Below are positions 34,166-48,270 of a stretch of DNA of 64,000 bases, piece after piece. Position 1 is the first letter of the stretch. Each line of letters begins with the position of its first letter. Origin of the DNA: Oscillospiraceae bacterium. Lineage in GTDB: Bacteria > Bacillota > Clostridia > Oscillospirales > Oscillospiraceae. The stretch is from positions 2,728,001-2,792,000 of the forward strand of contig AP025582.1 of NCBI GenBank assembly GCA_022846075.1, read 5' to 3'. The position numbers and the translations under genes are program-made. The notes beneath the pieces are model-generated. The model worked only from the letters and a program-made list of their open reading frames with translations. It was not told where the DNA came from and did not search any database.

Positions 34166-34197
34166 GCCTTCCCCTCCGTTCGTCAAAATCAGATTTT

Positions 34198-34226
34198 ATT
34201 TTAACGGATAAGCGTCCGGCTGTCAA
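34198..34226 (-). promoter_or_regulatory. SigA-type promoter of the MBOAT operon
   Basis: Minus strand consensus TTGACA (34226-34221), 17-base spacer, TAAAAT (34203-34198), 33 bases before ATG 34165. Confidence 0.8.
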
Positions 34227-34283
34227 ACGGCGGGAGAGGGGCTCCGGGGGCCCTGGAGGGGGCCAGGGGCCGCCCGCCTCTCG

Positions 34284-34312
34284 TTGCGCCGGAAAATCAA
34301 ATATGCTATACT
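34284..34312 (+). promoter_or_regulatory. SigA-type promoter of the FHA-SEDS gene
   Basis: TTGCGC (34284-34289), 17-base spacer, TATACT (34307-34312), 36 bases before the gene. It is back-to-back with the MBOAT promoter. Confidence 0.75.
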
Positions 34313-34347
34313 GAAAAAACCTCGATTCAATCCCAACCATCAAGGAG

Positions 34348-36153
34348 GTGAGCGCCACGGACGCCCTTCTCTCCCTGCCCCAGACCCTTCTGGACGCGTT
34401 CCACCAGCTCTTGGCGGAGTATCCCGCCGCGGCAGGGTGGTATACCACCCTGGTCCGCTTCCTCTTTCCCATCCTGGCCCTCCTGATCCTGGTGAAGGCC
34501 ATCCGCTCCCTCCTCACCGTCCCCCACCTCCCCGAGGTGTGGGCCTACCTCTCCCTGCCCAACGGGGCCGGGACTCCCCTCACCCACTGGGAGAACACCC
34601 TGGGCCGCTCCCCCCAGGCCGACGTGGTGCTGGAATATCCCACCATCTCCCGCCAGCACGCCGCCCTCATCCGGGACCCCCACGACCAGTGGACGATCTA
34701 CGACCTGGACTCCAAGGGCGGCGTGGCGGTGAACGGCAAGCCGGTGGAGGACGCCGCCCCCATCCAGTACGGCGACGTGCTCTCCCTGGGGGGCGTGGAG
34801 ACCGTGCTCCTTCCCGTCTCCCCGGAGGAAAAGGCGGAGCGCCGTAAGCGCCGCAAGCAGGAGGCCAAGCCCGTCTCCCCCTGGGGAAGCCTCATCCTCC
34901 TCACCGTTTTCCAGGTCCTCACCGGCATCCAGCTCACCCTCTCTGAGGGGGCCGGTGCCACTCCCGTCCTCCCCTTCACCTTCCTGGCTCTCACCCTTCT
35001 GATGTGGGCCTACTTCCTCACCCTCCGGGCCCTGCGCCGGGTGGGCTTTGAGATGGAGACCATTGCCTTCTTCCTCTCCACCCTCTCCCTGGCCGTGGTG
35101 GCCTCCTCCAACACCCCCGCCCTCCCCAAGCAGTTTTTGTGCCTGGTGCTGGGGCTCGTCACCTTCCTGGTGCTGGGGGTCTTTCTCCGGGATTTGGAGC
35201 GGGCCAAAAAGATCCGCTGGCTCATGGCGGGGGCCGCCATCGGCCTGCTGGGCCTCACTCTCGTGCTGGGCAGCCGGAAGTTCGGCGCCACCAACTGGAT
35301 CACCATCGGCGGCATGTCCCTCCAGCCCTCGGAGCTGGCCAAGATCTGCTACATCTTTGCCGGCGCCGCCACCCTGGACCGGCTCTTCAAAAAGCGGAAC
35401 CTGGCCCTCTTCATTCTCCTCACCGGGGCCTGCCTGGGCTGTCTGGCCCTCATGAGCGACTTCGGTACCGCCGCCGTCTTTTTCGTCACCTTCCTGGTCA
35501 TCGCCTACCTCCGCTCCGGGGACTGGGCCACCCTGGGCCTCATCACCGGCGGGGCCGTGGGGGCCGTCATGGTCATCCTCAGCGTCAAGCCCTACATCCT
35601 CGCCCGCTTCGCCTCCTGGGGCCACGCCTGGGAGAACGCCAGCGTGGGCGCGGGCTACCAGCAGACCCGGGCCATGGCAGCGGCCGCCTCCGGCGGCCTC
35701 ATCGGCGTGGGCCCCGGGGAGGGCTGGCTCCACGTGGTGGGGGCGGGGGACACCGATTTGGTGTTCGGCATGCTCTGCGAGGAGTGGGGGCTCCTCATCG
35801 CCCTTCTGGCCGTCGTCTGCGTGGTCACCCTGGCGGTATTCGCCGTCCGCTCCTGCCGCACGGGCCGGTCCAGCTTCTACACCATCGCCGCCTGCGCCGC
35901 CACCTCCCTGCTGGTCTTTCAGACCTGCCTGAACGTCTTCGGCTGCATGGACCTGCTGCCCATGACCGGGGTCACCTTCCCCTTCGTCTCCAACGGCGGC
36001 TCGGCCATGATCGCCTCCTGGGGCCTGCTGGCCTTCCTCAAAGCCACCGACACCCGCCAGAACGCCAGCTTCGCCATCCGCCTGTCCTCCAAGCGGGAGG
36101 ACGCCGCCAACGCCGATTTGGCGCCCAGGGTATCCCCTGAGGGGGAGGAATGA
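34348..36153 (+). CDS. FHA-domain SEDS protein (FtsW/RodA/SpoVE family)
   Basis: ~600 residues. An N-terminal membrane helix (residues ~32-55) is followed by a cytosolic FHA phosphothreonine-binding domain (TLGRSPQADVVLEYPTISRQ, then LDSKGGVAVNGKPV). The SEDS glycosyltransferase core with about ten helices follows: RKFGATNWITIGGMSLQPSE, LMSDFGTAAVFF, ASGGLIGVGPGEG and the late motif MTGVTFPFVSNGGSA. SEDS proteins polymerise lipid II into glycan. The FHA domain implies control by a Ser/Thr kinase. The matching transpeptidase PBP is the next gene. Start is unclear: GTG 34348 touches the AAGGAG ribosome site, whereas ACG 34357 is correctly spaced from it. Confidence 0.9.
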   Translation: MSATDALLSLPQTLLDAFHQLLAEYPAAAGWYTTLVRFLFPILALLILVKAIRSLLTVPHLPEVWAYLSLPNGAGTPLTHWENTLGRSPQADVVLEYPTISRQHAALIRDPHDQWTIYDLDSKGGVAVNGKPVEDAAPIQYGDVLSLGGVETVLLPVSPEEKAERRKRRKQEAKPVSPWGSLILLTVFQVLTGIQLTLSEGAGATPVLPFTFLALTLLMWAYFLTLRALRRVGFEMETIAFFLSTLSLAVVASSNTPALPKQFLCLVLGLVTFLVLGVFLRDLERAKKIRWLMAGAAIGLLGLTLVLGSRKFGATNWITIGGMSLQPSELAKICYIFAGAATLDRLFKKRNLALFILLTGACLGCLALMSDFGTAAVFFVTFLVIAYLRSGDWATLGLITGGAVGAVMVILSVKPYILARFASWGHAWENASVGAGYQQTRAMAAAASGGLIGVGPGEGWLHVVGAGDTDLVFGMLCEEWGLLIALLAVVCVVTLAVFAVRSCRTGRSSFYTIAACAATSLLVFQTCLNVFGCMDLLPMTGVTFPFVSNGGSAMIASWGLLAFLKATDTRQNASFAIRLSSKREDAANADLAPRVSPEGEE

Positions 36154-36232
36154 TGTTTTCCCCCTTGGGGGGACGAGGGCATGGAGCCCCTGCCGGGGGC
36201 CCAAACCCGGTTTATGTTCTCAAGGACAGAGC

Positions 36233-36671
36233 CCTGGCCGGCATAGCCGGCCAGCCTACGCTAAAAACTTGCCACCGGCAAGTTTTCTGAACGCTGCGGT
36301 GGATGCCAAAAAAAGCGCCGAGTAAATATAAAACTGGTGACTCCTAATGACCGGCGCTCACGTCTGTCAACTCCGTCTCCTCTTAGCGCCGCTGCCGCTG
36401 ACTCCTGCTGTACAGAAACCTTTTGCAACTCATCGGCGCACCTAAGTAGGGGCAAATTTGTCAAATAGGCTTCCCCTGGGGGAAGGCTAAGGGCGTGCGC
36501 AACGACACGCATCAATCAAGTGCACGTCAGCGGCCGAACGGCGCAAGAGGGACCACGGGTCGCACAGACGCTCCCGTGCTTTTCCCCCTTTTTCGGGCAG
36601 TAGACCTTCTACTAAAAAGGAAACCTGCGAGCAGGTCAGCACCAAAGACTTTTCTTTGGGGGTCTGGGGCG
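36233..36671 (-). repeat. Composite intergenic repeat, copy A
   Basis: The gap 36154-36796 has no gene. It holds module delta (36233-36299, CTGGCCGGCATAGCCGGCC then GCTAAAAA...), a 25-base remnant of module gamma (36469-36493), module alpha inverted (36526-36590, around GACCACGGGTCGCACAGACG) and module beta inverted (36640-36671, AAAGACTTTTCTTTGGGGGT). These also occur near 49.1, 58.8 and 61.7 kb. Small open frames here are translations of the repeats. A palindromic sequence, ACGTCCCGACGTGC, follows at ~36715. Confidence 0.75.
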
Positions 36672-36796
36672 GCGTTTCTTTTCCTCGGGAAAAGAAATGT
36701 CCCCCAGATTTACGCACGTCCCGACGTGCAATCACTCAATGATAGAATATCCTTATCCTAACACCACCCAGTGGACATCCAGAAAGGAGGCCCCTC

Positions 36797-38152
36797 ATGC
36801 GCAAAATCGAAAAGCGGGCGGCGGTCTGCCTCCTGCTGGCCCTGGCTCTCCTGCTGGGCACCGGCCTCTTCGCCTTCCGCTTCGTCACCAGCGGGGGCAA
36901 GTGGGTCTCCTACCTCTCCACCTTCTCCGGCCGCCCCGCCTCGGGCCGGGTGCTGGACCGGGACGGAGATGTCTTGAGTTATGTCAACTCAGACGGCAGG
37001 CGGGTCTACTACGGCAACCCCGCCGTCCGCAAAGCCACCCTCCACGCCGTGGGGGACGCCCAGGGCCGCATCGGTACCGGGGCCCTGGTGGCCTTTTCCG
37101 ACCAGCTCTCGGGCTACAACCTCCTCACCGGCACCTACTCCCCACTGGGGGCGGGCAACGACCTCTACCTCACCATCGACGCCTACCTTAATTATGTGGC
37201 CCACCAGGCCATGAACGGCCGGAAGGGCACGGTGGCGGTCTACAACTATGAGACGGGGGAGGTGCTGTGTATGTACTCCGCCCCCACCTTCGACCCCGCC
37301 GATCCCCCCGCCGTTTTGGATGAGGACCCCGCCTATGACGGGGTTTATGTCAACCGCTTTCTGGGGGCCACCTATCCCCCCGGCTCGGTGTTCAAGCTGG
37401 TCACCCTGGCCGCCGCCATTGAGAACCTCCCCGATTTGGACGAGCGCACCTTCACCTGCACCGGCGCCACCGTGGTGGGGGGCGAGACCATCACCTGCCC
37501 CTCGGTCCACGGGGAGTTGGACGTGGAGAGTGCCCTGGCCCACTCCTGCAACGGCTATTTCGCCCAGCTGGCCGCGGAGCTGGGGCCGGACGCCCTGGCC
37601 TTCTACGCCGAGGAGGCGGGCCTCACCCACAGCTATACTGTCAGCGGCCTCAGCACCGCCAAGGGCCGCTTCGACCTCACCGACGCCACCGCCGGACAGG
37701 TGGGCTGGGCGGGGGTGGGGCAGTACAACGACTTGGTGAACCCCTGCTCCCTGCTGGTATATATGGGCGCCATCGCCCGGGGCGGCGAGGCCGCCGTGCC
37801 CCAGCTGGTGCTCAAGACCCAGTCCGCCCTGGACCTCCCCCTCACCTTTTACCTAAAGAAAAAGACCGGCCGCCTGGTGGAGGAAAAGACCGCCGAAAAG
37901 CTGGCCGACATGATGGCCAACAACGTCCAGACCGCCTACGGCGTGGGCCGCTTCCCCAATATGGACGTCTGCGCCAAGTCGGGCACCGCAGAGGTGGGCG
38001 GGGGCAAGGCCCCCCACGCCTGGTTCGCCGGCTTCCTCCGTGGGGAGGACACCCCCTACGCCTTCGTGGTGCTGGTGGAAAACGGCGGCTCGGGCTCCGA
38101 CGCGGCGGGGAACGTGGCCGCGAAGGTGCTGGACGCCCTGGTAAACGGATAA
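36797..38152 (+). CDS. Penicillin-binding transpeptidase (PbpA/FtsI type), SEDS partner
   Basis: 451 residues with GGAGG ribosome site. One N-terminal membrane anchor (VCLLLALALLLGTGLFAFRF), a short dimerisation region and a transpeptidase domain. All three active-site motifs are present: SVFK (in YPPGSVFKLVTLAAA), SCN (ALAHSCNGYFAQ) and KSGTAEV. Length matches the monofunctional PbpA class of actinobacteria and clostridia, which work with RodA-like proteins; here the FHA-SEDS gene is upstream on the same strand. A 640-bp repeat-rich gap separates them, and TGATAGAAT at 36740 may be an extended -10 giving the PBP its own promoter. Confidence 0.9.
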   Translation: MRKIEKRAAVCLLLALALLLGTGLFAFRFVTSGGKWVSYLSTFSGRPASGRVLDRDGDVLSYVNSDGRRVYYGNPAVRKATLHAVGDAQGRIGTGALVAFSDQLSGYNLLTGTYSPLGAGNDLYLTIDAYLNYVAHQAMNGRKGTVAVYNYETGEVLCMYSAPTFDPADPPAVLDEDPAYDGVYVNRFLGATYPPGSVFKLVTLAAAIENLPDLDERTFTCTGATVVGGETITCPSVHGELDVESALAHSCNGYFAQLAAELGPDALAFYAEEAGLTHSYTVSGLSTAKGRFDLTDATAGQVGWAGVGQYNDLVNPCSLLVYMGAIARGGEAAVPQLVLKTQSALDLPLTFYLKKKTGRLVEEKTAEKLADMMANNVQTAYGVGRFPNMDVCAKSGTAEVGGGKAPHAWFAGFLRGEDTPYAFVVLVENGGSGSDAAGNVAAKVLDALVNG

Positions 38153-38203
38153 ATGAACCAATTCCTGTCAATTATCATGAAATTCTGGTTATTCTATTTT
38201 CTG

Positions 38204-38243
38204 AATCCTCCCGCAAGACGTACGTCTTGCGGGGGGATTTTTG
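38204..38243 (+). terminator. Terminator after the PBP gene
   Basis: AATCCTCCCGCAAGACGT and its near-complement form an 18-base stem with a final T-run. Confidence 0.9.
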
Positions 38244-38308
38244 TTATTCGGTTTAACCCCCCCCCATTTTTCAGCCGGAATAAAATAAATAGAAAAAACC
38301 AACCATAA

Positions 38309-38351
38309 TGCGAACTGCTTCATACCCCATTTTTCGTGCAATGTTTATAAT
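38309..38351 (+). promoter_or_regulatory. Predicted Crp/Fnr-dependent promoter of the decarboxylase operon
   Basis: A perfect TATAAT (38346-38351) has no recognisable -35 box. An imperfect dyad GCGAA-CTGC-TTCAT (38310-38323) is centred about 41.5 bases before the expected start site, the place where class II Crp/Fnr activators bind. The first gene encodes a Crp/Fnr protein, so this may be autoregulation. ATTTTT(C/T)GTGC also occurs twice nearby (from ~38329 and ~38368). Confidence 0.4.
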
Positions 38352-38401
38352 TCTAAACGCTGGAGTGCATTTTTTGTGCCACCCCTGAGAAGGAGGACCC
38401 T

Positions 38402-39085
38402 GTGCTGAATGATTATTATTCTCCCTGGATCTCGTCCGACCTCTCCTCCTGGACCGCCATCGCCCGTCCGGAGTTTCTGGTCCCCATGCCCAAGGGGACC
38501 CACATCGAGCAAGGCCGCGACAACACGGGCTATATCTATCTGGTGGAGAGCGGCCAGCTTATGCAGACCGTCCTCTCCCAAAGCGGCACGGAACGCATCC
38601 TGATGTTCCTCGCCTCGGGCAGTCTGTTCAATGAGATGGGGCTGTTTGAGTCGGCGTTCACCTTCTATGCCGTTGACGCCCTGGTGGACTCCAGGCTCTA
38701 CCGTATCCCGCAGGACCGGTTCCTCCACTGCCTCCACCAGGACAACGACCTGTGCCTGGCGCTGATCCGTCAGCTGACTCGCAAGGTGGCCATTCTGGCC
38801 CACCAGACCTCCGACCTGGTGTTCGGCAACGCCTATCAGCGCATTGCCGCCGAGCTGCTGTATTTTGTCTGCAACCACGGCGTCCCCGTGCCCGGGGGTA
38901 CCATGATCGACATGGACATCACCCAGCAGTTCATCGCCAAGCGCATCAACACCTCCCGGGAGACCGTCTGCAAGGTTATGGGCAAAATGACGGCGGCGGG
39001 CATCCTGAAAAAAGAGCGGGGCCGCTATGTCATCCGCGATGAGGAGGCCCTGCACCGCGCCGTCGCCGCTCTGTGGGACACTTGA
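38402..39085 (+). CDS. Crp/Fnr-family regulator of the decarboxylase operon
   Basis: 227 residues from GTG 38402 (GAAGGAGG upstream). Residues ~20-130 form the cyclic-nucleotide-type beta-roll (PKGTHIEQGRDNTGYIYLVE, ASGSLFNEMGLFES). A dimer helix and a C-terminal winged helix with FIAKRINTSRETVCKVMGKM follow. No Fe-S cysteine set like Fnr is seen, so it probably senses a small molecule rather than oxygen, similar to CooA/CprK-type regulators of aromatic metabolism. It is the first gene of the putative UbiD operon and probably activates it when substrate is present. Confidence 0.85.
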   Translation: MLNDYYSPWISSDLSSWTAIARPEFLVPMPKGTHIEQGRDNTGYIYLVESGQLMQTVLSQSGTERILMFLASGSLFNEMGLFESAFTFYAVDALVDSRLYRIPQDRFLHCLHQDNDLCLALIRQLTRKVAILAHQTSDLVFGNAYQRIAAELLYFVCNHGVPVPGGTMIDMDITQQFIAKRINTSRETVCKVMGKMTAAGILKKERGRYVIRDEEALHRAVAALWDT

Positions 39086-39147
39086 GGCAAGCCCTCTCTT
39101 CGGCGAGAGACGAAGTTGATCAAACATTGGGGAAAGGAGGAAAAAAT

Positions 39148-39264
39148 ATGATTATGAACATGCCCGTCAGTTCCTTTTTTGTTTACTACGTGGGATATTT
39201 CCTGCAGGCCGCCGTCATCGTTGCCCTGGGCATTTACTGGTACAAAACAGAAGGCCGCAAATAG
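39148..39264 (+). CDS. Symporter small accessory protein
   Basis: 38 residues with a perfect AAAGGAGG site. It is one membrane helix (SSFFVYYVGYFLQAAVIVAL) followed by GIYWYKTEGRK. Tiny single-helix proteins of this kind are encoded directly before SSS or NSS symporters and are thought to be their accessory subunit. The SSS symporter gene starts 80 bases downstream. Confidence 0.75.
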   Translation: MIMNMPVSSFFVYYVGYFLQAAVIVALGIYWYKTEGRK

Positions 39265-39344
39265 CGTTCCGCAAACCGTTCTGCCCCTGACAGCGCCGAA
39301 GGGACCGCCGCACTGTACAGATACGAATGAGGAGGGATGACCGC

Positions 39345-40841
39345 ATGATTATTTTTTGTATCGTTGTCTTTTTAGTGGCCATGATCGTGGTTGGATACGT
39401 CGCCACAAAAAAAGTCAAAAACTCCAACGACTATTACCTCGGCAACAAGGAATTCGGCCCCTTTGCCACCGCGTTCAAATTCGCAAGCACCTGGGAAAGC
39501 GGCTCCAAACTGGTGGGTTCTCCGGGCCAGGCTTACGCCAGCGGCATGACCGCCTTTTTGCAGGGATTGACCTCTCCCCTGGCCTATTTCATGAGCTTCC
39601 GGGTCTTCGGCCCCCGTCTGAAGGCCGCCAGCGACTACTATGACGTCATCACCGTCCCCGAAATGCTGGGGAAGCGCTACCACAGCCAGACGGTACATAC
39701 CGTCAGCTCCCTGGCCCTGCTCGTGGGGCTGATGGGCACCCTTCTGGGCCAGTTCCAGTCCATCGGCAACGTGGTGGGCACTGTTCTGGAAATCCCCTAT
39801 GTGCCCGCCCTCGTCGGCGGCGTGGCCATCATCGGTTTGTACACCGTCTTCGGCGGCTACCGGGCCTCCGTGTGGACCGATATGGCCCAGGGCGCCTGCA
39901 TGGTGGGCGGCTCCATCCTGATCTTTTTCTTCGTCATCAAGGAGGCCGGAAACTGGTCCCTCCCCAGCCTGAATGAACAGCTGAACGCCATCCAGCCCAC
40001 CATGCTCCACCTCACCGGCGGGGCGGAGATGACGGTGCTGACCCTGTGCACCTTCCTCATCATCCCGCTGTTCATGGGCATCGCCCTGCCCCAGCAGTCG
40101 GTGGCCATCTTCTCCATGAAGGACCGCCGGGTGGGCAACGCCTCCCTTATCATCTGCGTGCTGTTCTCCACCGTGCTCATCTGGGGGCTCTACCTGGCGG
40201 CCATGACCGCCCGCACCATGGACGGTTTCGTGGTCCAGAGCCCCGACGCGGTGACCACCACCCTGGCCATCCAATACATGCCCGAGGTGCTGGCGGGACT
40301 GTTTATCACCGCCATCATGGCCGCTATCATGAGCACCTGCGACGGCGTGCTGCTGGTGGCCTCCTCCATCCTCACCCGGGACATCTTCCGCCGGATCAAG
40401 CCCGACGTCTATGAAAAGCACGCCGTGGCCTATAACCGCCTGGCCACCATGGTGGTGTGCGTCATTCCCCTTCTCATCGCCATCAAGCCCCCCGCCGCCG
40501 TATTCTGGGTGGTCTCCTTCGCCATGGCGCTGACGGTGTTTACCTTCGCCCTGCCCATGCTGGGCATCATCGCCATCCGCCGGGCCACCAAGGAGGCCGC
40601 TCTGGCCCAAATCATCGTGGTGGTCCTGCTCATCCCCGCCTGGGTGGTCTTCGGGCTGGATAAGAGCACGGGCATCTCCGCCCTGGCCATCGGTATGCTG
40701 GCCGCCCCGGTGGTCTTCTTCCCGGTGATGCTGCTGACCAAGCCCCCCGCCAGCGACCCGGAGACCGACCGACTCTGGGAGATCTACGGGGAGATTCGGG
40801 AGGAGCGGCGCAAGGCCAAGCTGGCCCGCAAAAAAGGATGA
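39345..40841 (+). CDS. Sodium:solute symporter (SSS family)
   Basis: 498 residues from ATG 39345 (GAGGAGG). About 13 membrane helices. SSS features are the start VVGYVATKKVKNSNDYYLGN, FASTWESGSKLVGSPGQAY, GLYTVFGGYRASVWTDMAQG and the sodium-site-like AIMSTCDGVLLVASSILTRD. It likely brings in the carboxylate used by the hydrolase and decarboxylase encoded downstream, in exchange for a sodium gradient. Relatives carry proline, pantothenate, acetate and others; the substrate is not readable. Confidence 0.9.
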   Translation: MIIFCIVVFLVAMIVVGYVATKKVKNSNDYYLGNKEFGPFATAFKFASTWESGSKLVGSPGQAYASGMTAFLQGLTSPLAYFMSFRVFGPRLKAASDYYDVITVPEMLGKRYHSQTVHTVSSLALLVGLMGTLLGQFQSIGNVVGTVLEIPYVPALVGGVAIIGLYTVFGGYRASVWTDMAQGACMVGGSILIFFFVIKEAGNWSLPSLNEQLNAIQPTMLHLTGGAEMTVLTLCTFLIIPLFMGIALPQQSVAIFSMKDRRVGNASLIICVLFSTVLIWGLYLAAMTARTMDGFVVQSPDAVTTTLAIQYMPEVLAGLFITAIMAAIMSTCDGVLLVASSILTRDIFRRIKPDVYEKHAVAYNRLATMVVCVIPLLIAIKPPAAVFWVVSFAMALTVFTFALPMLGIIAIRRATKEAALAQIIVVVLLIPAWVVFGLDKSTGISALAIGMLAAPVVFFPVMLLTKPPASDPETDRLWEIYGEIREERRKAKLARKKG

Positions 40842-40875
40842 TTCGCCGACAGGCAAAACAGGAGGTATCTCAACC

Positions 40876-41877
40876 ATGAAAATCGGCACCGCCACATGCG
40901 AAAAGGGCCAAAAGGCCACAGGTTACATCCACACCGCCTGGCTGGGGGACTGCAGCGAGGTCCGGGTCCCCGTCATGCTGGTCCGGGGCGCGCAGGACGG
41001 CCCCGTCCTGTGGATCAACGCGGGGGTCCACGGCCAGGAGGTCTCCGGCATCTTCGCCATCCACCGGCTCTTCGACCTTTTGGACCCCGCCCAGATCAGG
41101 GGCGCCGTCGTGGCCACCCCCGGCTGCAACCCGCTGGGGCTAAAAGGGCACAACAAATTCACCCCCGAGGACCAGCTGGACCTGGACCAGCAGTTCCCCG
41201 GCCGTCCGGATGGCTGGCTCAGCGAGCAGATGGCCTATCACTTCTTCCGCGAGGTGAAGGACACCGCCAACTACATGCTGGACCTCCACGCCCTGGGCGG
41301 CGTGGACGCCGCGCCCTACACCGTGTTCAAATCGGCGGCGGGGGTGGACCCCAAAATCAACGCCGACACCCAGGCCTTGGCCCTTTTGATGCAGGCCCCC
41401 TTCAACTGCCACGTGGACCTGACCACCGCCACCGGGGAGCTCCCCGGCTCGGTCATGGGGGCCCTGGACATCCAGTGTATCCTCAACGGCATCCCCGCCG
41501 TCATGGTGGAGATGGGCGCGGGGAACCGGGTGGTCTGGGAAAACGTGGACCGGGTCTGTGAGGGCATCCAGCGGGTCATGCGGTACATAGGCCTCCTGGA
41601 CGGCGAGGCCACTTTCATCCCGGGACAGAAAATCGTCACCAAACGCTGCTTCCCCACCAACACCCGGGGCGGCCTGGTCTTCCCCCAGGTCAAGCCAGGC
41701 TCCATCCTCAAGGGCGGTGCGCTGATCGCCCTGGTCAAGGACTACGTGGGCAACGTGCTGGAGGAGATCCGCGCCCCCCAGGATTGCATCGTCATTGGCA
41801 TCCTGGAAAACCCCATCGCCAACGCCGGCACAGTCATCACCGCCATGGGCCTGGAATGGTATGAGACCGACCAATGA
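40876..41877 (+). CDS. Succinylglutamate desuccinylase/aspartoacylase-family hydrolase
   Basis: 333 residues, M14-like zinc hydrolase. Zinc ligands appear in NAGVHGQEVSG (His and Glu) and in MLDLHALGG (His); substrate-side features are GCNPLGLKGHNKF and the MVEMGAGNR block that contains the catalytic glutamate. The C-terminal ~80 residues form the usual beta-barrel. Such enzymes cleave an amide, or sometimes an ester, bond of N-acyl amino acids and related conjugates. Placed between symporter and decarboxylase genes, it may free an aromatic acid from a conjugate before decarboxylation. No signal peptide is present, so it acts in the cytosol. Confidence 0.85.
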   Translation: MKIGTATCEKGQKATGYIHTAWLGDCSEVRVPVMLVRGAQDGPVLWINAGVHGQEVSGIFAIHRLFDLLDPAQIRGAVVATPGCNPLGLKGHNKFTPEDQLDLDQQFPGRPDGWLSEQMAYHFFREVKDTANYMLDLHALGGVDAAPYTVFKSAAGVDPKINADTQALALLMQAPFNCHVDLTTATGELPGSVMGALDIQCILNGIPAVMVEMGAGNRVVWENVDRVCEGIQRVMRYIGLLDGEATFIPGQKIVTKRCFPTNTRGGLVFPQVKPGSILKGGALIALVKDYVGNVLEEIRAPQDCIVIGILENPIANAGTVITAMGLEWYETDQ

Positions 41878-41893
41878 AGGGAGAAAAAACACC

Positions 41894-43207
41894 ATGATCA
41901 ACTCTCTGAGAGATTACATCGCCCTCCTGGATGAGCTGGGCTGGATCGACCACATCACTGATGAGGTGGAGCTTCTGCAAATCCCCACCATCATGAAGGA
42001 GCAGGAACAAAAGCGGCGCACCGTCCTGTTCGAGCATGTCAAGGGCTGCCGCTCCCCCCTTATCAATAACCTCTTCCCCAGCCGGGACTATCTGGGCCGG
42101 CTCTTCTCCTGCGAGGGCCGGGACGTGACCCGGGTGTTCGCCGAGCGCTACGAGGCCTCCATCCCCCCCGTCCTGGTGGACAGCGGCCCCGTCCAGGAAG
42201 TGGTCCTGAGCAAGGGGGAGTTCGACATCCGGGACTTCCCCTTCATCCAGCACAACGCCGGAGACGCCGGGCGGTACATCACCGCCGGCATGGTCATCGC
42301 CAAGGACCCTGTCACCGGCGTGCGCAATTTGTCCTTCAACCGCATGCAGCTCAAGGGCCCTGACCGCACCGGCTTCCGCATGTCCCCCACCCAAGACCTG
42401 GAAAACTACTACAACAAGGCCAAGAAACTGGGACGGAATTTGGAGATTGCCGTGGTCATCGGCAACAGCCCCTATGAGCTTCTGGCCGCGGCCTGTGGCC
42501 CGGCCCGGGACGTGGACGAGCTGGGGATCGCCGGGGCCCTCCGGGGCGCTCCGGTGGAGCTGGTCAAATGCAAAACCGTGGATTTGGAGGTCCCCGCCAA
42601 CGCCGAGCTGGTGCTGGAGGGCTACCTGGTCCCCGGCGAGATGGAGCCCGAGGGCCCCTTCGGGGACTTTATGGAGTTCAAAATCCAGATGATGGACAAC
42701 CCCATCCTCCACATCCAGACCGTCACCATGCGCAAAGACCCCATCGTCCAGTGCATCGGCGCCGGCTCCAAGGACGACGGCACCCTCCTGAGCACCCCCC
42801 GGGAGGCCCAGATTTACAACGTGCTCAAGGCCGCCAACGCCGACGTGACCGCCATCAACCTCAACCTGGTCAACAACTACCTCACCGGCGTGGCCGCCAT
42901 CCGCAAGCAGTTGGAGTACGAGCCCAAAAACCTCATCATGGCCGCCTTCGGCAGCTTCAAATTCCTGAAAAACTTCATCATTGTGGACCATGACGTGGAT
43001 ATCTTCGACCCCAAGGACGTCTTCTGGGCCCTCTCCACCCGCCTGCGGGCGGAGCAGGGGGTGATGGTGGTGCCCCACACCGTGGGCTTCGGACGGGACG
43101 ACCACGGCATCCACACCGCCAAGCTGGGCATCGACGCCACCGCGCCGCTGAACTGCTGGGATGAGTTTGCCCGGGTGCAGCCCCCCGCCTGGCCGCCGGA
43201 GTCCTGA
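41894..43207 (+). CDS. UbiD-family prenylated-FMN decarboxylase (LpdC-like)
   Basis: 437 residues from ATG 41894. Hallmarks of UbiD are present: the FDIRDFPFIQ region, NLSFNRMQLKG (arginine that contacts prFMN), GNSPYELLAAACG and MEPEGPFGDFMEF (catalytic glutamates), and TVTMRKDPIVQ. It belongs to the group that acts with UbiX-made prFMN and, often, a small LpdD chaperone: gallate, protocatechuate, 4-hydroxybenzoate or related aromatic acid (de)carboxylases. All these companions are in this operon, so an active, prFMN-loaded enzyme is likely. The natural substrate is unknown. Confidence 0.9.
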   Translation: MINSLRDYIALLDELGWIDHITDEVELLQIPTIMKEQEQKRRTVLFEHVKGCRSPLINNLFPSRDYLGRLFSCEGRDVTRVFAERYEASIPPVLVDSGPVQEVVLSKGEFDIRDFPFIQHNAGDAGRYITAGMVIAKDPVTGVRNLSFNRMQLKGPDRTGFRMSPTQDLENYYNKAKKLGRNLEIAVVIGNSPYELLAAACGPARDVDELGIAGALRGAPVELVKCKTVDLEVPANAELVLEGYLVPGEMEPEGPFGDFMEFKIQMMDNPILHIQTVTMRKDPIVQCIGAGSKDDGTLLSTPREAQIYNVLKAANADVTAINLNLVNNYLTGVAAIRKQLEYEPKNLIMAAFGSFKFLKNFIIVDHDVDIFDPKDVFWALSTRLRAEQGVMVVPHTVGFGRDDHGIHTAKLGIDATAPLNCWDEFARVQPPAWPPES

Positions 43208-43220
43208 GCGGCCCCCGCCG

Positions 43221-44564
43221 GTGGCCGGGGCCGGAACCGGGCCGGCGGGCGAACTGCTGCGCCTGTCCGGCCCCATGCTGCTGGGCAACCTGTTCCAACA
43301 GCTCTACTATCTCACCGACATCTGGATGATTGGCCGCTTCCTGGGACAGGACGCCACCGCCGCCGTTGGCGCGGTCATGCCCGCGGTCAATCTGCTGCTC
43401 ACCCTCCTCATCGGCCTGGCCGGCGGCGCCAGCGTCCTGTTCAGCCAGCGCGCCGGGGCGGGCGACCAGGCGGGGGAGCGGCGCTGCGTGGAGACCGCCG
43501 CCGTTCTCTGGCTGGCCGCCTCCGCGGCGGTCACCGCCCTGGGCCTGGCCCTCTCCCGCCCCGCCGTGACGGCCCTGGGGGTACCCCCCGCGCTGCGGGA
43601 GCCCGCACTGCGCTACCTGACCGTGGTCTTCGCGGGCACTGTCTTCAACAGCGGCTATAACACCCTAGCCGCCCTCCGCCGGGGCGCGGGGGACGCGGTG
43701 CGGCCCATGCTTTTTCTGGCCGCCTCCGCCGGGGCCAACATCGCTCTGGATTACCTCTTTCTCGTCCCCCTTGGCCTGGGGACGGCGGGGGCGGCTCTGG
43801 CCACGGCCCTGGCCCAGGCCATGGCCTGCGCGGGGCTTTACCGCTCCGTCCTGCGGACTAGCTCCCTCTACCGGCTCCGGCCGGGCCGGGTGCGCCCCGC
43901 CGCAGAAGACGTCCGGGCCATCCTGCGCCTGGGTCTGCCCGCCGCCCTCCAGCAGGCCGCGGCCTGCCTGGCCGCCTTCGCGGCCCAGATCATGGTCAAC
44001 TCCCTGGGGCCCCAGATGATTGCCGGCTACGCCGTAGCCCTCCGGGTGGAGAATTTTGTGGTCTTGCCCGCCGTCAGCCTGGAGCACTCCGTATGCAGCC
44101 TGACCGGGCGCAGCGTAGGCGCGGGGCGGGAGGAGCGAATTACCAAAGCCCTGGGCTGGGCGCTGGCCTTTTCCGCCGTGCTGGGCGGAGGGCTGTTCCT
44201 CTTGTTCCAAAGCCATTCCGGCGCCGTCATCTCTCTCTTCCTCCCCGGCGCGGGCGAGGCCGCCCGCCTGGGCGGGGCCTATCTCGCCGGCGCGGGCGCG
44301 GGCTACTGGGCCCTTCTGTGCACCTATGCCCTGGGCGGCGTGTTCCGGGGCCGGGGCAGAGCGGCCGTCCCCCTGGCGGCGGCCCTGCTGGGCTCCTGGC
44401 TCATCCGCCTGCCCGTCACCTGGCTCCTGCTGCGCCGGGGCGGCGGGGCCGACGCCCTTTGGCTGGGGGCGTTCCTGGGCTGGCTGGCCGGGCTCTTTCT
44501 GGAGCTGGCGGTTCTGGTCCGGGACCGGCGCCGCAACACGCGAAAAAGGAGCTGTTCGATTTGA
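43221..44564 (+). CDS. MATE-family efflux transporter
   Basis: ~447 residues with 12 hydrophobic helices. LSGPMLLGNLFQQLYYLTDI, VGAVMPAVNLLLTLLIGLAG and YNTLAALRRGAGDAVRPMLF are typical MATE. GTG 43221 is given as the start; ATG 43161 would overlap ubiD by 47 bases and encode an unconserved Pro/Arg-rich end, and neither has a good ribosome site. Its place between ubiD and ubiX suggests that it exports the decarboxylation product, probably a phenol-type compound, or a toxic conjugate. Unusually GC-rich and leucine/alanine-rich. Confidence 0.8.
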   Translation: MAGAGTGPAGELLRLSGPMLLGNLFQQLYYLTDIWMIGRFLGQDATAAVGAVMPAVNLLLTLLIGLAGGASVLFSQRAGAGDQAGERRCVETAAVLWLAASAAVTALGLALSRPAVTALGVPPALREPALRYLTVVFAGTVFNSGYNTLAALRRGAGDAVRPMLFLAASAGANIALDYLFLVPLGLGTAGAALATALAQAMACAGLYRSVLRTSSLYRLRPGRVRPAAEDVRAILRLGLPAALQQAAACLAAFAAQIMVNSLGPQMIAGYAVALRVENFVVLPAVSLEHSVCSLTGRSVGAGREERITKALGWALAFSAVLGGGLFLLFQSHSGAVISLFLPGAGEAARLGGAYLAGAGAGYWALLCTYALGGVFRGRGRAAVPLAAALLGSWLIRLPVTWLLLRRGGGADALWLGAFLGWLAGLFLELAVLVRDRRRNTRKRSCSI

Positions 44565-45133
44565 ATCTGGTCGTCGCCATCTCCGGCGCCACCGGCGCCA
44601 TTTACGGCGTCCGCCTGCTGGAAGTCCTCCACGCCATGCCCCAGGTGACCACCTACGCGGTCCTGAGCCACTGGGCCCGGCAGACCATCCCCCTGGAGAC
44701 CGGCCGCGCGCCCGAGGAGGTGCTGGCCCTGGCCGACCGGGTCTTCGACGACGATGACCTGGCCGCCGCCATCTCCAGCGGCTCCTTCCGCCACGACGGG
44801 ATGGCCGTGCTGCCGTGCAGCATGAAGACCCTCTCCGCCATTGCCAACGGCTACTCCGAGACCCTCATCGCCCGGGCCGCCGACGTGACGCTGAAGGAGC
44901 GCCGCCCCCTGGTGCTGGCGGTCCGGGAAACCCCCCTGAGCCCCATTCACCTGGAGAACATGCTCAAGCTGTCCCGAATCGGGGCCGTTATCATGCCCCC
45001 CGTGCCCAGCTTTTACAGCCGTCCCACCTCCCTGGAGCAGGTGGTGGACCAGTTCGTGGGCCGTGTGCTGGACAGCCTCGGGGTGGAAGGCCATTCCCTC
45101 TGCCGCCGCTGGGACGGCGCGCCGCCGCTCTGA
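44561..45133 (+). CDS. ubiX: UbiX-family flavin prenyltransferase
   Basis: 190 residues from TTG 44561, overlapping the MATE stop by four bases, with AAAAGGAG upstream. The N-terminal phosphate-binding loop VVAISGATGAIYGVRLLE and the later SMKTLSAIANGYSETLIARA, KERRPLVLAVRETPLS and MPPVPSFYSRP motifs match UbiX, which attaches dimethylallyl to FMN to make prFMN. Co-occurrence with the UbiD gene and the LpdD-like gene shows the cofactor is made inside the same operon. Confidence 0.9.
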   Translation: MNLVVAISGATGAIYGVRLLEVLHAMPQVTTYAVLSHWARQTIPLETGRAPEEVLALADRVFDDDDLAAAISSGSFRHDGMAVLPCSMKTLSAIANGYSETLIARAADVTLKERRPLVLAVRETPLSPIHLENMLKLSRIGAVIMPPVPSFYSRPTSLEQVVDQFVGRVLDSLGVEGHSLCRRWDGAPPL

Positions 45134-45157
45134 CAGCCTGAAAAGGAGGCGTTTTTC

Positions 45158-45541
45158 TTGACGCGCGAAAAAAAGGCCGGCCTGCTCCCCTTCCTGCTGG
45201 GATTGGCCCTGTGTCCCGGCCTGCCGGCAGTGGGGCTGCTGGCAGCCGCCCTGTGCCCCGAAGACCTGCCCGCCCTCTACTGGGCGGTGTCCCTCCTGCT
45301 GCTGGGACACCTGTTTTTGAGCTGTCTCACCAGCCGTCAGGCGGCGCGGCCCATCCTCTTCGCCCTGACCGCCTCGGCCAGGATGCTCTTCCTCCCCCCG
45401 GCGGCCACGCTCTTCCGGCAGATGTTTCAGGCCGTCTGTCTGGGCTCCCTGGCCGTCTTCCTCTTCACGGCGGCGGGAACGCTCCGAACCGCGTGGGTCC
45501 TGTCCCGCCGGGCCGGCTGGGAGGGCGGACGGAATGGATGA
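45158..45541 (+). CDS. Small membrane protein in the decarboxylase operon
   Basis: 127 residues from TTG 45158 (AAAAGGAGG upstream). Four hydrophobic segments are visible (LLPFLLGLALCPGLPAVGLL, WAVSLLLLGHLFLSCL, ILFALTASARMLFLP, FQAVCLGSLAVFLFTAAGTL). I recognise no family. It overlaps the LpdD-like gene by eight bases, so its product is made with the decarboxylase machinery and might take part in transport. Confidence 0.65.
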   Translation: MTREKKAGLLPFLLGLALCPGLPAVGLLAAALCPEDLPALYWAVSLLLLGHLFLSCLTSRQAARPILFALTASARMLFLPPAATLFRQMFQAVCLGSLAVFLFTAAGTLRTAWVLSRRAGWEGGRNG

Positions 45542-45953
45542 CGCCTCCCTCCTGCTCTCCTTCGGTCAGGGCCGCCACCGAATCACCGCCCGCGCCCTGG
45601 CCTGCGGGACCGACCTGCTGGTCAGTTTCACCGGCGGCGACACCCCCCACATCGGCGCCTGCGCCACCGCCGTGCCCCGGCCCAGTCTGCGCCCAGGCGG
45701 ACCCCCCTCGGCCAGCGCGTCGGTCCTCTGCGTCTCCGGTCACAAGGAGGACCTCCCCGCCCGGCAGGCCGCCCTGGCCTTAGCCTCGGCCTGCGGCTGC
45801 GTGGTCTGTGTCTGCGCGGGGTTCCACGTGGATAACGCGTCCCCTGCCGACATCGAACTGCTGCAGACAAACTTCACCTCTCTCCTGGAAGCGCTGACCA
45901 ATGCCTGCCGGGGTTGGCCCTCTCTCCGGCCGCCGGCAGACGGCAGACCCTAA
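45534..45953 (+). CDS. LpdD-like prenylated flavin chaperone
   Basis: 139 residues. Motifs GGDTPHIGACATAVPRPSL, VLCVSGHKEDLPARQAALAL and CAGFHVDNASPADIELL match the small LpdD/EcdD proteins (proteasome-assembly-chaperone-like fold) that help aromatic-acid UbiD enzymes become active with prFMN. Its presence separates this cluster from ubiquinone-type UbiD/UbiX pairs and favours a fermentative hydroxybenzoate- or gallate-type decarboxylase. It is the last gene of the operon, followed by a strong terminator. Confidence 0.8.
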   Translation: MDDASLLLSFGQGRHRITARALACGTDLLVSFTGGDTPHIGACATAVPRPSLRPGGPPSASASVLCVSGHKEDLPARQAALALASACGCVVCVCAGFHVDNASPADIELLQTNFTSLLEALTNACRGWPSLRPPADGRP

Positions 45954-45978
45954 AGCGGCGTTTCCACCTCTCTCTCCC

Positions 45979-46013
45979 GCCGGGCGGCAATTCCTTGCCG
46001 CCCGGCCCTTTTT
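45979..46013 (+). terminator. Terminator of the decarboxylase operon
   Basis: Twelve-base arms GCCGGGCGGCAA and complement around TTCC, then five T. Confidence 0.9.
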
Positions 46014-46055
46014 ATGCTAAAATGGGGGCCAAGCATCAAAGGGGGGCGTTTCTCC

Positions 46056-46955
46056 GTGACAAAGCCAAAGCTCATCGTCATCCTGGGCACCACCGCTTGC
46101 GGCAAAAGCGGCCTGGGCGTGGCCCTGGCCAAACGATATCAGGGGGAGATCGTCTCCGCCGACTCCCGGCAGGTATACCGGGGCCTCGATCTGGGCACCG
46201 GCAAGGTAACGCCGGAGGAGATGGAGGGTGTCCCCCACCACATGCTGGACGTGGTGGATCCCGGCCAGCCCTACTCCGTGGCCCAGTTCCAGCAGGGGGC
46301 CTACGCCGCCATCGACGGCATCGTCGGCCGGGGAAACCTCCCCTTCCTGGTGGGGGGCACCGGCCTCTACGTCCGGGCGGTGGCCGAGGGCTTCGTCTTC
46401 CACGCCGCGCCACCCGACCCCGCCCTCCGGGCGGAATTGGAGGCCCTCCCCACCGAGGAGCTGCGGGCCCGTCTCGCCGCCCGGGGCGTGGCCCTGGACG
46501 TGGACGCCTGGAACAACCGCCCCCGGCTGGTGCGGCTGCTGGAGAAGGCCCGGACCGGCGGCGACCCCCACGCCGAGGCGGAGCGGGACCCCCGCTACGA
46601 CGTTTTGACCCTGGGGGTCAATTTTCCCCGGGAGACGGTCTGCCGCCGCATCGACGACCGCCTCTTAGCCCGCCTGGACGCGGGCATGGTAGAGGAAGTG
46701 GCCGCCCTCCGCGCCGGGGGCGTCCCCGACGACTTCCTGGAGGGCCTGGGGCTGGAATACCGCTACATCCTGTGGTACCTCCAGGGGAAGCTCAAGACCG
46801 AGGATGAACTTGTGGACGAGCTGAGCCGGGCTATCAAGCGTTTCGCCAAGCGGCAGGTGTCCTGGTTCAAAAAGGACACGGACGTCCACTGGCTGGACAT
46901 GGAAGCCGACCCGGCGGCGGAGGCCGGGGCCCTCATCGATGCCTTCCTGGCCTGA
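46056..46955 (+). CDS. miaA: tRNA dimethylallyltransferase MiaA
   Basis: 299 residues from GTG 46056 (AAGGGGGG upstream). P-loop GTTACGKSG, the family motif SADSRQVYRGLDLGTGKV, DVVDPGQPYSVAQF and the DMAPP/tRNA region GGTGLYVRAV and RRIDDRLLARLDAGMVEE are all present. It adds an isopentenyl group to A37 of tRNAs that read UNN codons. Length is normal. It is not obviously linked to its neighbours. Confidence 0.92.
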   Translation: MTKPKLIVILGTTACGKSGLGVALAKRYQGEIVSADSRQVYRGLDLGTGKVTPEEMEGVPHHMLDVVDPGQPYSVAQFQQGAYAAIDGIVGRGNLPFLVGGTGLYVRAVAEGFVFHAAPPDPALRAELEALPTEELRARLAARGVALDVDAWNNRPRLVRLLEKARTGGDPHAEAERDPRYDVLTLGVNFPRETVCRRIDDRLLARLDAGMVEEVAALRAGGVPDDFLEGLGLEYRYILWYLQGKLKTEDELVDELSRAIKRFAKRQVSWFKKDTDVHWLDMEADPAAEAGALIDAFLA

Positions 46956-47071
46956 GCCCTCTTCAGAATTTCTTCATAATTCTTTACCAAATCCTCATGG
47001 TTTCGCTACTGTTTTCCTTCGATTTTTCGGGTAGACTGAAGTCACCCTTGAAAGACCGGAGGAAACCCATC

Positions 47072-47608
47072 ATGTTTTGGAAATTCAAAGAAAACGCCGC
47101 ATGGCTCGCCTGCATCTCCGACCTGCTGCCCGACGAGGCCGTGCAGTCCATGAAATCTCTGCCCCAGCACCGCCGGGGCTTCAGCTGCTACCACCACTCC
47201 CTGCTGGTGTCCTACGCCAGCTTCGTCCTCTGCCGCCGCCTGGGCTGGCGGGCCAAGGAGGCCGCCCGGGGCGCCCTGCTCCACGACCTCTACCTCTATG
47301 ACTGGACCGACCGCAGCCTCCACACCGGCCGGGACCACCTGAAAAATCATCCTGACACCGCCCTGGAAAACGCCAACGCCCGCTTCCTACTCACCAAGCG
47401 GGAGCAGGACATCATCGCCACCCACATGTTCCCCGTGACCCTCACGCCCTACCACTATTTGGAGTCCTTTGCCGTCAGCACCATGGACAAGGTGTGCGCC
47501 GTCATGGAGCTGCTGGGGATCCTCCCCGAGACCGTCCCCGCCCCCTACGCCCTGCCCCAGAACGCTTACGCCTATCAGGAACTCTCCCTGGGCCGGGCCA
47601 TCTCGTAA
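47072..47608 (+). CDS. HD-domain phosphohydrolase-like protein
   Basis: 178 residues from ATG 47072 with GGAGG upstream. HD-superfamily metal ligands are visible: YHHSLLVSY, LLHDLYLYDW, and TKREQDIIATHMFPV, with a final Asp in VSTMDKVCAV. This suggests a nucleotide or phosphate-ester hydrolase. The DxxT and other fine motifs do not allow a specific assignment. It is transcribed toward rubrerythrin, 57 bases further on. Confidence 0.8.
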   Translation: MFWKFKENAAWLACISDLLPDEAVQSMKSLPQHRRGFSCYHHSLLVSYASFVLCRRLGWRAKEAARGALLHDLYLYDWTDRSLHTGRDHLKNHPDTALENANARFLLTKREQDIIATHMFPVTLTPYHYLESFAVSTMDKVCAVMELLGILPETVPAPYALPQNAYAYQELSLGRAIS

Positions 47609-47664
47609 CGTATAACACCACAAAAAATGGACATGCTGATACCATCCATAAAGGGGGTATCACC

Positions 47665-48270
47665 ATGTCCGTTTCCTTTGAAAACAGCGAGACCAAACGC
47701 AATGTCCTCCGGGCCTTTGCCGGTGAGAGCCAGGCCCGCAACCGCTATACCTTCGCCGCCGGTCTGGCCAAGAAGAACGGCCTGGAGGTCATCGAGGCCG
47801 TCTTTACCTTCACCGCCGACCAGGAGCGGGCCCACGCCCGGGCCTTCTACGACTATCTGGAGAAGTGCTCCGGGGAGAACATCGCCATCGACGGCACCTA
47901 TCCCGTGGACCTCTACCCCACCCTGGTGGAGCACCTGCGGGCCGCCCAGCACAACGAGTACCAGGAGTGGGAGCACGACTATACCGGCTTCGCCCACGTG
48001 GCCAAGGAGGAGGGCTTCCCCGAGATCTCCCACCTCTTCTCCCAGATCGCCCGCATCGAGCAGGTCCACGGCGACCGCTTCGGCCTCTTCGCCGACCTGC
48101 TGGAGCGGGACAAGCTCTTTGTCAGCGAGGTGGAGTGCCAGTGGATGTGTCTCAACTGCGGCTATCTGGTCACCGCCACCCGTCCTCCTGAGATCTGCCC
48201 GGTGTGCAAGGAGGGGCAGGGGTATTTCATTCGGATGGAAATGGTTCCCTATCAAATGGCAAAGAGATAA
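47665..48270 (+). CDS. rbr: Rubrerythrin
   Basis: 201 residues. The N-terminal ferritin-like four-helix domain carries the di-iron ligands in FAGESQARNRYTF, FTADQERAHARAF, AQHNEYQEWEHDYT and ARIEQVHGDRF. The C-terminal rubredoxin-like domain has two CxxC pairs (CLNCGYL, CPVC). It reduces hydrogen peroxide with electrons from rubredoxin or NADH, protecting strict anaerobes. A convergent small gene overlaps its last 44 bases. Confidence 0.92.
   Translation: MSVSFENSETKRNVLRAFAGESQARNRYTFAAGLAKKNGLEVIEAVFTFTADQERAHARAFYDYLEKCSGENIAIDGTYPVDLYPTLVEHLRAAQHNEYQEWEHDYTGFAHVAKEEGFPEISHLFSQIARIEQVHGDRFGLFADLLERDKLFVSEVECQWMCLNCGYLVTATRPPEICPVCKEGQGYFIRMEMVPYQMAKR

Follow-up and report, generated by a model that had tools for sequence, protein, structure and literature searches.

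We analysed a 64,000-nucleotide stretch of the genome of an Oscillospiraceae bacterium, presumably a gut anaerobe (contig AP025582.1, positions 2,728,001 to 2,792,000; hereafter the window). The stretch contains an operon of nine genes, all on the + strand (38402-45953), that joins a zinc hydrolase to a UbiD-type decarboxylase dependent on prenylated flavin mononucleotide (prFMN). The first gene encodes a Crp/Fnr-family regulator of 227 aa (38402-39085; HTH_Crp_2 3.6e-15, cNMP_binding 8e-14), whose only cysteines are at positions 110, 118, 157 and 190, so that it has no N-terminal cysteine cluster. It is followed by a 38-aa hydrophobic peptide (39148-39264) and a sodium:solute symporter (SSS; 39345-40841; PF00474 8.6e-56, 190 bits vs a cut-off of 22.8), which is panF/putP-like yet stays under both equivalog cut-offs (panF 213.9 bits vs 328, putP 170.7 vs 515.5). 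Downstream lie the AstE/AspA-type zinc hydrolase of 333 aa (40876-41877; PF24827 1.5e-19), the UbiD of 437 aa (41894-43207; PF01977 1.5e-64), a MATE-family exporter (about 43221-44564; PF01554 1.4e-45, MatE domain 155.3 bits vs a cut-off of 24.9), a UbiX flavin prenyltransferase (44561-45133; TIGR00421 252 bits vs a cut-off of 108.9), a small membrane protein with three hydrophobic stretches (45158-45541) and a predicted LpdD-type chaperone that would bind reduced prFMN (prFMNH2; 45534-45953; PF21758 8.9e-34, 8pzh_A 1.1e-11 by profile). The Pfam cut-off was passed by seven of the nine proteins (HTH_Crp_2, SSF, AstE_AspA_cat, UbiD, MatE, Flavoprotein and PAC_bac), and the peptide and the small membrane protein had no family match in Pfam or NCBIfam.

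The genes are closely spaced, with gaps of 62 bp between crp and the peptide, 80 bp between the peptide and the SSS gene, and at most 34 bp or an overlap from there to LpdD. The ubiX gene starts with TTG and overlaps the MATE stop, and an alternative MATE start, ATG at 43161, would overlap ubiD. From this spacing we infer that all nine genes are carried on one transcript. An end terminator (45979-46006, + strand; 12-pair stem with 10 GC pairs and a T run) follows the last gene, and a strong hairpin with a T run (38203-38240, + strand; 17-pair stem) lies 5′ of the operon. The hairpin scan found 10 structures against 7.9 expected in shuffles, and only these two long stems are meaningful. The gene order, the close spacing and the single end terminator given in a preliminary description of this locus were confirmed by Pfam, the coordinates and the hairpin scan. 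The promoter scan returned none 5′ of crp, and no riboswitch that could name the ligand was detected in positions 33000-48000 of the window (E up to 0.5). In seven relative loci, two group II intron pieces were the sole matches at gathering scores; such pieces (L069, 8844-9139) adjoin the UbiD gene of genome G535, a relative described below.

The operon sits within a block (38153-46013) inserted between a pbp gene (36797-38152) and miaA (46014-46955) of this 3.23-Mb single-contig genome, and the upstream hairpin falls inside the block. The miaA gene is present in 16/16 genomes of the genus. We compared 12 miaA loci including the window's own; four further miaA matches came without a locus. The site is empty in two of the 11 other loci (L055 and L060), where pbp lies directly 5′ of miaA, the pbp stop and the miaA start are 29 and 33 bp apart, and no operon gene was matched. 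For the remaining nine, pbp was unmatched within the DNA examined around miaA. At E up to 1e-10 the hydrolase was found in two of the 16 congeners, once in the genome itself and once as a 29% homologue. Since the genus otherwise holds only this homologue, and L055 and L060 have empty sites, the cassette is accessory in the genus. As judged from these sequence comparisons, it appears to be a horizontally acquired catabolic unit that entered as one inserted block, which agrees with its earlier characterization as self-contained. GC content varies from gene to gene across the operon and was not used as evidence of transfer.

Hydrolases of this kind are rare. Within the family, 15 of 250 genomes had a match at E up to 1e-20 (the own genome and 14 others at 26–30% identity). 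At 1e-90 the own genome was the only one among 391 of the class, and 3 of 398 were found in the phylum, the other two belonging to one genus and carrying 38–41% copies without a UbiD nearby. In the order of one of these two, 3/13 genomes had the hydrolase at 1e-80, and at the same threshold it occurred in 1/113 genomes of the class of G1024, namely G1024 itself, the source of locus L019. Fetching by hydrolase similarity alone yielded three close relatives of 52–62% identity, in metagenome-assembled genomes titled Desulfitobacteriaceae (L018), Peptococcaceae (L019) and Clostridiaceae (L020). All three have the gene order hydrolase, small peptide, SSS, a protein of ~200 aa and UbiD. Identity to the window is 62, 50 and 61% for UbiD and 41, 44 and 41% for the symporter in L018, L019 and L020, respectively. 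The peptide, a conserved symporter partner directly 5′ of the SSS gene, was located by tblastn in L019 and by eye in L018 and L020. As the core was present in each of the three close hydrolase relatives that we found, we conclude from gene order that the linkage of hydrolase and UbiD is not due to chance. The ~200-aa protein (L018 8134-8760, L019 12636-13223, L020 9258-9872) had no Pfam or NCBIfam match (L018 and L019 tested) and no convincing solved relative (one tested), and we saw no counterpart of it in the window operon.

The conservation does not extend to the longer order hydrolase-ubiD-ubiX-lpdD, which had been considered earlier. The window Crp, MATE, small membrane protein, UbiX and LpdD had no match in the immediate L018-L020 loci. 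On the L018 contig the core is followed 3′ by a DAO-type oxidoreductase, ETF, three molybdenum-hydroxylase subunits, RidA, insertion sequences, UbiX, molybdenum-maturation genes and LpdD (DAO, hydroxylase subunits and RidA by Pfam; UbiX and LpdD by similarity; the others by reading). There ubiX and the LpdD gene lie 12–18 kb downstream, beyond the insertion sequences, and their products are 52 and 34% identical to those of the window. Neither gene was found in the L019 contig, and that of L020 stops with ubiD. LpdD-family matches occur at least once in the own genome and in those of L018, L019 and L020; in the last, one of two matches lies on another contig, beside a GntR gene 47% identical to the L018 GntR gene.

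The assignment of the last operon gene was examined by profile search. A five-sequence profile matched the solved LpdD chains 8pzh, 8po5 and 8p4w at E about 1e-11, and the window protein alone matched solved LpdD at 0.0073. With phmmer, designed Pizza proteins scored better E-values than LpdD; we regard these hits as spurious, and the profile search gave LpdD alone. The metal-site histidines H35 and H61 of LpdD correspond to window H39 and H70, which are invariant in 5/5 LpdD rows, and D63 aligns with window Glu72, which is followed by Asp73. The protein is predicted to be a prFMNH2-binding chaperone. The gallate decarboxylase system LpdB/LpdC/LpdD of L. plantarum, as described in PMC10865409, shares UbiX, LpdD and the two metal-site histidines with the window. 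It differs in that the window UbiD is not of the LpdC/VdcC type and that the window adds a hydrolase, a symporter and a MATE exporter. According to the same paper, LpdD is only rarely found beside UbiD.

The UbiD itself exceeds the domain cut-offs of PF01977 (217.4 bits vs 23.3), PF20696 and PF20695. Its best match among solved structures is PtHmfF (6h6v; 1.7e-80), followed by AnInD (2.8e-41). The arginine and two acids of the E-R-E/D network are present as R150, E253 and D258: R150 aligns with AnInD R155, E253 and D258 are invariant in a four-sequence alignment, and D258 was counted by eye against AnInD E266. PtHmfF is a furan-2,5-dicarboxylate decarboxylase (6h6v is HmfF in PMC8988006) with 38% identity over the full length, and R150, E253 and R303 (HmfF R304) are shared with it. 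In contrast, alignments place window Asp295 at the ring-contact position, where HmfF has its specificity residue His296, and HmfF R331 is without an equivalent, facing Leu330 (HMMER) or Tyr329 (MAFFT). We rejected a furandicarboxylate decarboxylase identity because of these active-site differences. An LpdC/VdcC-type assignment was likewise rejected, as the protein scored 253.7 bits with the NCBIfam VdcC model NF041204, far under the cut-off of 650, and is 26% identical to VdcC compared to 38% for HmfF.

Among nine other aligned UbiDs, Asp at position 295 occurs only in that of Pseudohalocynthiibacter, and His occurs in HmfF, in the genome's own second UbiD and in that of Thalassospira. A likeness to the window is offered by PA0254/HudA, a pyrrole-2-carboxylate decarboxylase, which also uses prFMN, acts on an N-heteroaromatic acid and tolerates Asp at the ring-contact position. 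As given in PMC7976604, the side chain of its N318 comes close enough to a ring nitrogen of bound imidazole for a hydrogen bond, and full decarboxylation of pyrrole-2-carboxylate was seen with the wild type and N318D only. The same source equates N318 with HmfF H297 (one off from H296 in our count) and places PA0254 on the Fdc-type branch, distant from the window UbiD. The second UbiD of the genome (815891-817177 of the contig) belongs to a cluster at 804–820 kb (L053 4168-4590, 9763-11751, 15892-17235 and 18589-19803) with LpdD, a DctM-type permease and aconitase X; its retained HmfF-type His suggests that it acts on a different, furan or dicarboxylic, acid.

We then turned to the relatives of UbiD and their neighbours. 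At E up to 1e-100, UbiD was found in 2 of 371 genomes of the class, the own genome (two copies) and G535, whose UbiD is the closest of all with 67% identity. It is surrounded by a tryptophanase-like gene (74% to that of L018), RidA, a molybdopterin oxidoreductase, a Na+/H+ antiporter-family protein and UbiX (54%). The window, L018, L019, L020 and G535 sequences form a clade recovered by IQ-TREE at 96/95 (bootstrap/SH-aLRT), and molybdenum enzymes, RidA and tryptophanase-like genes lie near its UbiDs. Outside the clade, three annotated plasmid UbiDs at 34–36% identity, examined among 421 plasmid records with a UbiD match, adjoin Asp/Glu-racemase-family, hutC or urocanate hydratase genes, a setting reminiscent of histidine metabolism.

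In the phylum, 3 of 398 genomes had UbiD at E up to 1e-120 (own, G844 and G683). The UbiDs of G844 and G683 are the nearest that we found outside the clade, and both adjoin adenine-deaminase-like and formiminotransferase (FTCD) genes. The neighbours are Adenine_deam_C, FTCD_N, FTCD, FTCD_C, Creatininase and Isochorismatase in G844 (L046 3-9521), and Adenine_deam_C, FTCD_N, FTCD and a Cyclase-family protein in G683 (L047 819-7417). On the 9-kb G683 contig, no FTCD_C, creatininase or isochorismatase was detected in the proteins examined, and pieces matching the window UbiX (44% identity across 102 aa) and LpdD (39% across 67 aa) lie beside UbiD. This gene content fits the xanthine-to-glycine route in PMC3519856 and PMC12507026. 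The genes for its steps were unassigned in the former paper, from 2012, and the xanthinase cluster has since been identified, which the latter, from 2025, credits to Tong et al. 2023. By gene context, we consider the UbiD of these two clusters a candidate for the decarboxylase that acts on aminoimidazole carboxylate in a xanthinase-type purine pathway. Both UbiDs share the G-S-x-[DE]-D motif with all five clade members, and FastTree joins them to the clade with a support of 0.994–0.995. The xanthinase clusters have no hydrolase matching that of the window, and the nine operon proteins include neither a formiminotransferase nor an amidohydrolase or creatininase.

The hydrolase had been called aspartoacylase-like in the preliminary description. 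It is indeed an AstE/AspA-type zinc hydrolase, but among NCBIfam models and solved structures its matches point to the DoeB/EutE N-acetyl-diaminobutyrate deacetylase branch, and characterised aspartoacylases were absent from its sequence hits. It is not a member of DoeB proper (TIGR02994 81.7 bits vs a cut-off of 402.7). The structural model is of moderate quality (pLDDT 63.1) and confirms the family fold only, with 3cdx and 6twm as top hits and CphZ (8ein) later. H52, E55, H138 and E212 are invariant in 4/4 sequences (window and L018-L020) and aligned with DoeB; we take the first three to be zinc ligands and E212 to be the catalytic Glu. Fold, ligands and catalytic Glu are thus common to DoeB/EutE (6twl, 6twm) and the window hydrolase. 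The latter differs in that DLDQ replaces the NLNR motif, K94 stands where DoeB has Arg, and a GELPG...GALD stretch is added. The Asn-Arg pair of NLNR, which precedes F-P-G, was retained by 9 of the 12 more remote relatives aligned, namely DoeB and 11 loci (13 loci were submitted, L015 and L017 gave no row, and L004, L009 and L013 were not included). The window hydrolase and its close relatives have D-[LM]-D-[QM] instead (DLDQ, DMDM or DMDQ). In this fold the pair presumably holds the carboxylate of the leaving group, and if so, its absence makes hippurate-like substrates less likely.

The altered motif and the insert are shared by the 38–41% copies of one genus (L027-L030), and we conclude from these sequence features that such hydrolases are a subfamily of their own. 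No UbiD match was present in the L027-L030 loci examined. The L027-L029 hydrolases adjoin a fumarate-reductase-like flavoprotein, in L027 and L028 together with fumarase and PrpD (by Pfam for L027), and that of L030 adjoins tripartite-type transporter genes (by eye). Two plasmid relatives at 34% identity, from Aminobacter and Cupriavidus, were examined among 565 records with a hydrolase match, and the altered form of the motif was read from their sequences. On the Aminobacter plasmid pSR7 (L070 8929-9966) the hydrolase of this subfamily stands beside a nitrilase-related hydrolase and a molybdopterin oxidoreductase, with metC, cysteine dioxygenase and rhodanese genes some kb away, and a MetC-like protein was seen by eye in the Cupriavidus locus. 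Breakdown of mercapturates or cysteine conjugates was considered on this account and not used.

Based on the UbiD active-site residue and the neighbours of the UbiD relatives, we propose that the cassette serves uptake, hydrolysis and prFMN-dependent decarboxylation of an N-heteroaromatic acid derivative, a proposal that we hold about as likely to be right as wrong. The symporter with its small peptide would import a polar compound, and the zinc hydrolase would cut an amide (or ester) bond, freeing a carboxylic acid. With prFMN from the operon's own UbiX and LpdD, UbiD would then decarboxylate this acid, whose ring is more likely of the pyrrole or imidazole kind than a phenol. The decarboxylated product, perhaps cationic, would probably leave the cell through the MATE pump, and the Crp-like protein probably senses the compound. 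What the sequence itself establishes is the gene content, the catalytic residues of hydrolase and UbiD, the conserved core of four genes and the insertion as a block.

Several observations weigh against this proposal. G535 has no close hydrolase (none in the 20 kb read, and none in the class search at 1e-90, which is presumed to include G535), so that the UbiD reaction need not require the hydrolase. IQ-TREE joins the clade to the xanthinase-like pair at just 77/95 (bootstrap/SH-aLRT), which is not strong. Arg303 is common to HmfF, a dicarboxylate enzyme, and the same E-D pair occurs in an alphaproteobacterial UbiD whose gene neighbourhood is different. The relatives' loci have no MATE, and the AlphaFold model of UbiD is too poor for inspection of the pocket (pLDDT 40.7).

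The alternative that survives best has both enzymes serve one compound, but lets the hydrolase act later than UbiD, on an N-acyl or ring-opened product, or in a parallel branch. The G535 UbiD, which lacks a close hydrolase, speaks for it, as do the distant hydrolases of the subfamily that stand with molybdenum oxidoreductase or fumarase/PrpD genes and had no UbiD match in the loci examined. However, no ring-opening enzyme is recognised in the operon, whose catabolic enzymes are the hydrolase and UbiD only, and we regard this order as possible with perhaps a fifth of our confidence behind it. We consider the model of the preliminary description improbable. It starts from a hippurate-like conjugate, with an aromatic or phenolic acyl part, whose hydrolysis would leave a benzoate-type acid for decarboxylation as in LpdB/C/D. 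It accounts for the LpdD and UbiX genes and for the linkage of hydrolase and symporter to UbiD. The hippurate-type conjugate is weakened by the replaced Asn-Arg pair, and the gallate or hydroxybenzoate UbiD by the VdcC score and identity noted above. The VdcB score, in addition, is below its cut-off (259.2 bits vs 290), and the relatives' neighbours, which look like N-heterocycle or amino acid genes, together with Asp295 favour N-heteroaromatic acids.

Two further readings are both quite unlikely, and to a similar degree. In one, the operon would salvage a purine intermediate: the hydrolase would split the amide of aminoimidazole carboxamide or of its aspartyl (succinyl) derivative, UbiD would convert the aminoimidazole carboxylate so formed to aminoimidazole, and MATE would export it. 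If true, this would be a pathway for a purine-ring remnant, distinct from both the reductive uric acid route and that of xanthinase. In the other, the substrate would be a furan acid that stems from heated food and is set free from, for example, a furoyl-amino acid conjugate, and UbiD would decarboxylate it as HmfF does; PtHmfF is the closest solved relative and Arg303 matches its R304, but the changes at H296 and R331 stand against it, and the second UbiD of the genome, which keeps the His, would fit better. It is very unlikely that UbiD works as a carboxylase, which would activate an N-heterocycle or a phenol ahead of its breakdown: tryptophanase-like and molybdenum genes near some clade members might liberate a free ring compound and act on it further, but the window has an exporter and no recognised acid-consuming step after UbiD. 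Indole was also considered as the ring because of the tryptophanase-like genes near UbiD in L018 and G535, but indole-3-carboxylate decarboxylase has Val (or Phe, by eye) at the Asp295 position.

Among the matches listed for titles and abstract openings in the open-licence literature, no operon joins an AstE/AspA hydrolase with UbiD. The cassette is a real, conserved and portable catabolic unit, a variant of the UbiD operon. Through it, an AstE/AspA subfamily and a UbiD clade, both unassigned, become linked to each other and to a symporter, and it offers two testable enzymes with their own cofactor supply. It also points to UbiD as a candidate for the decarboxylase in xanthinase-like purine clusters. 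If an N-heteroaromatic acid is the substrate, as we propose, the operon would give anaerobic Bacillota a further step on nitrogen-ring compounds that needs no oxygen.

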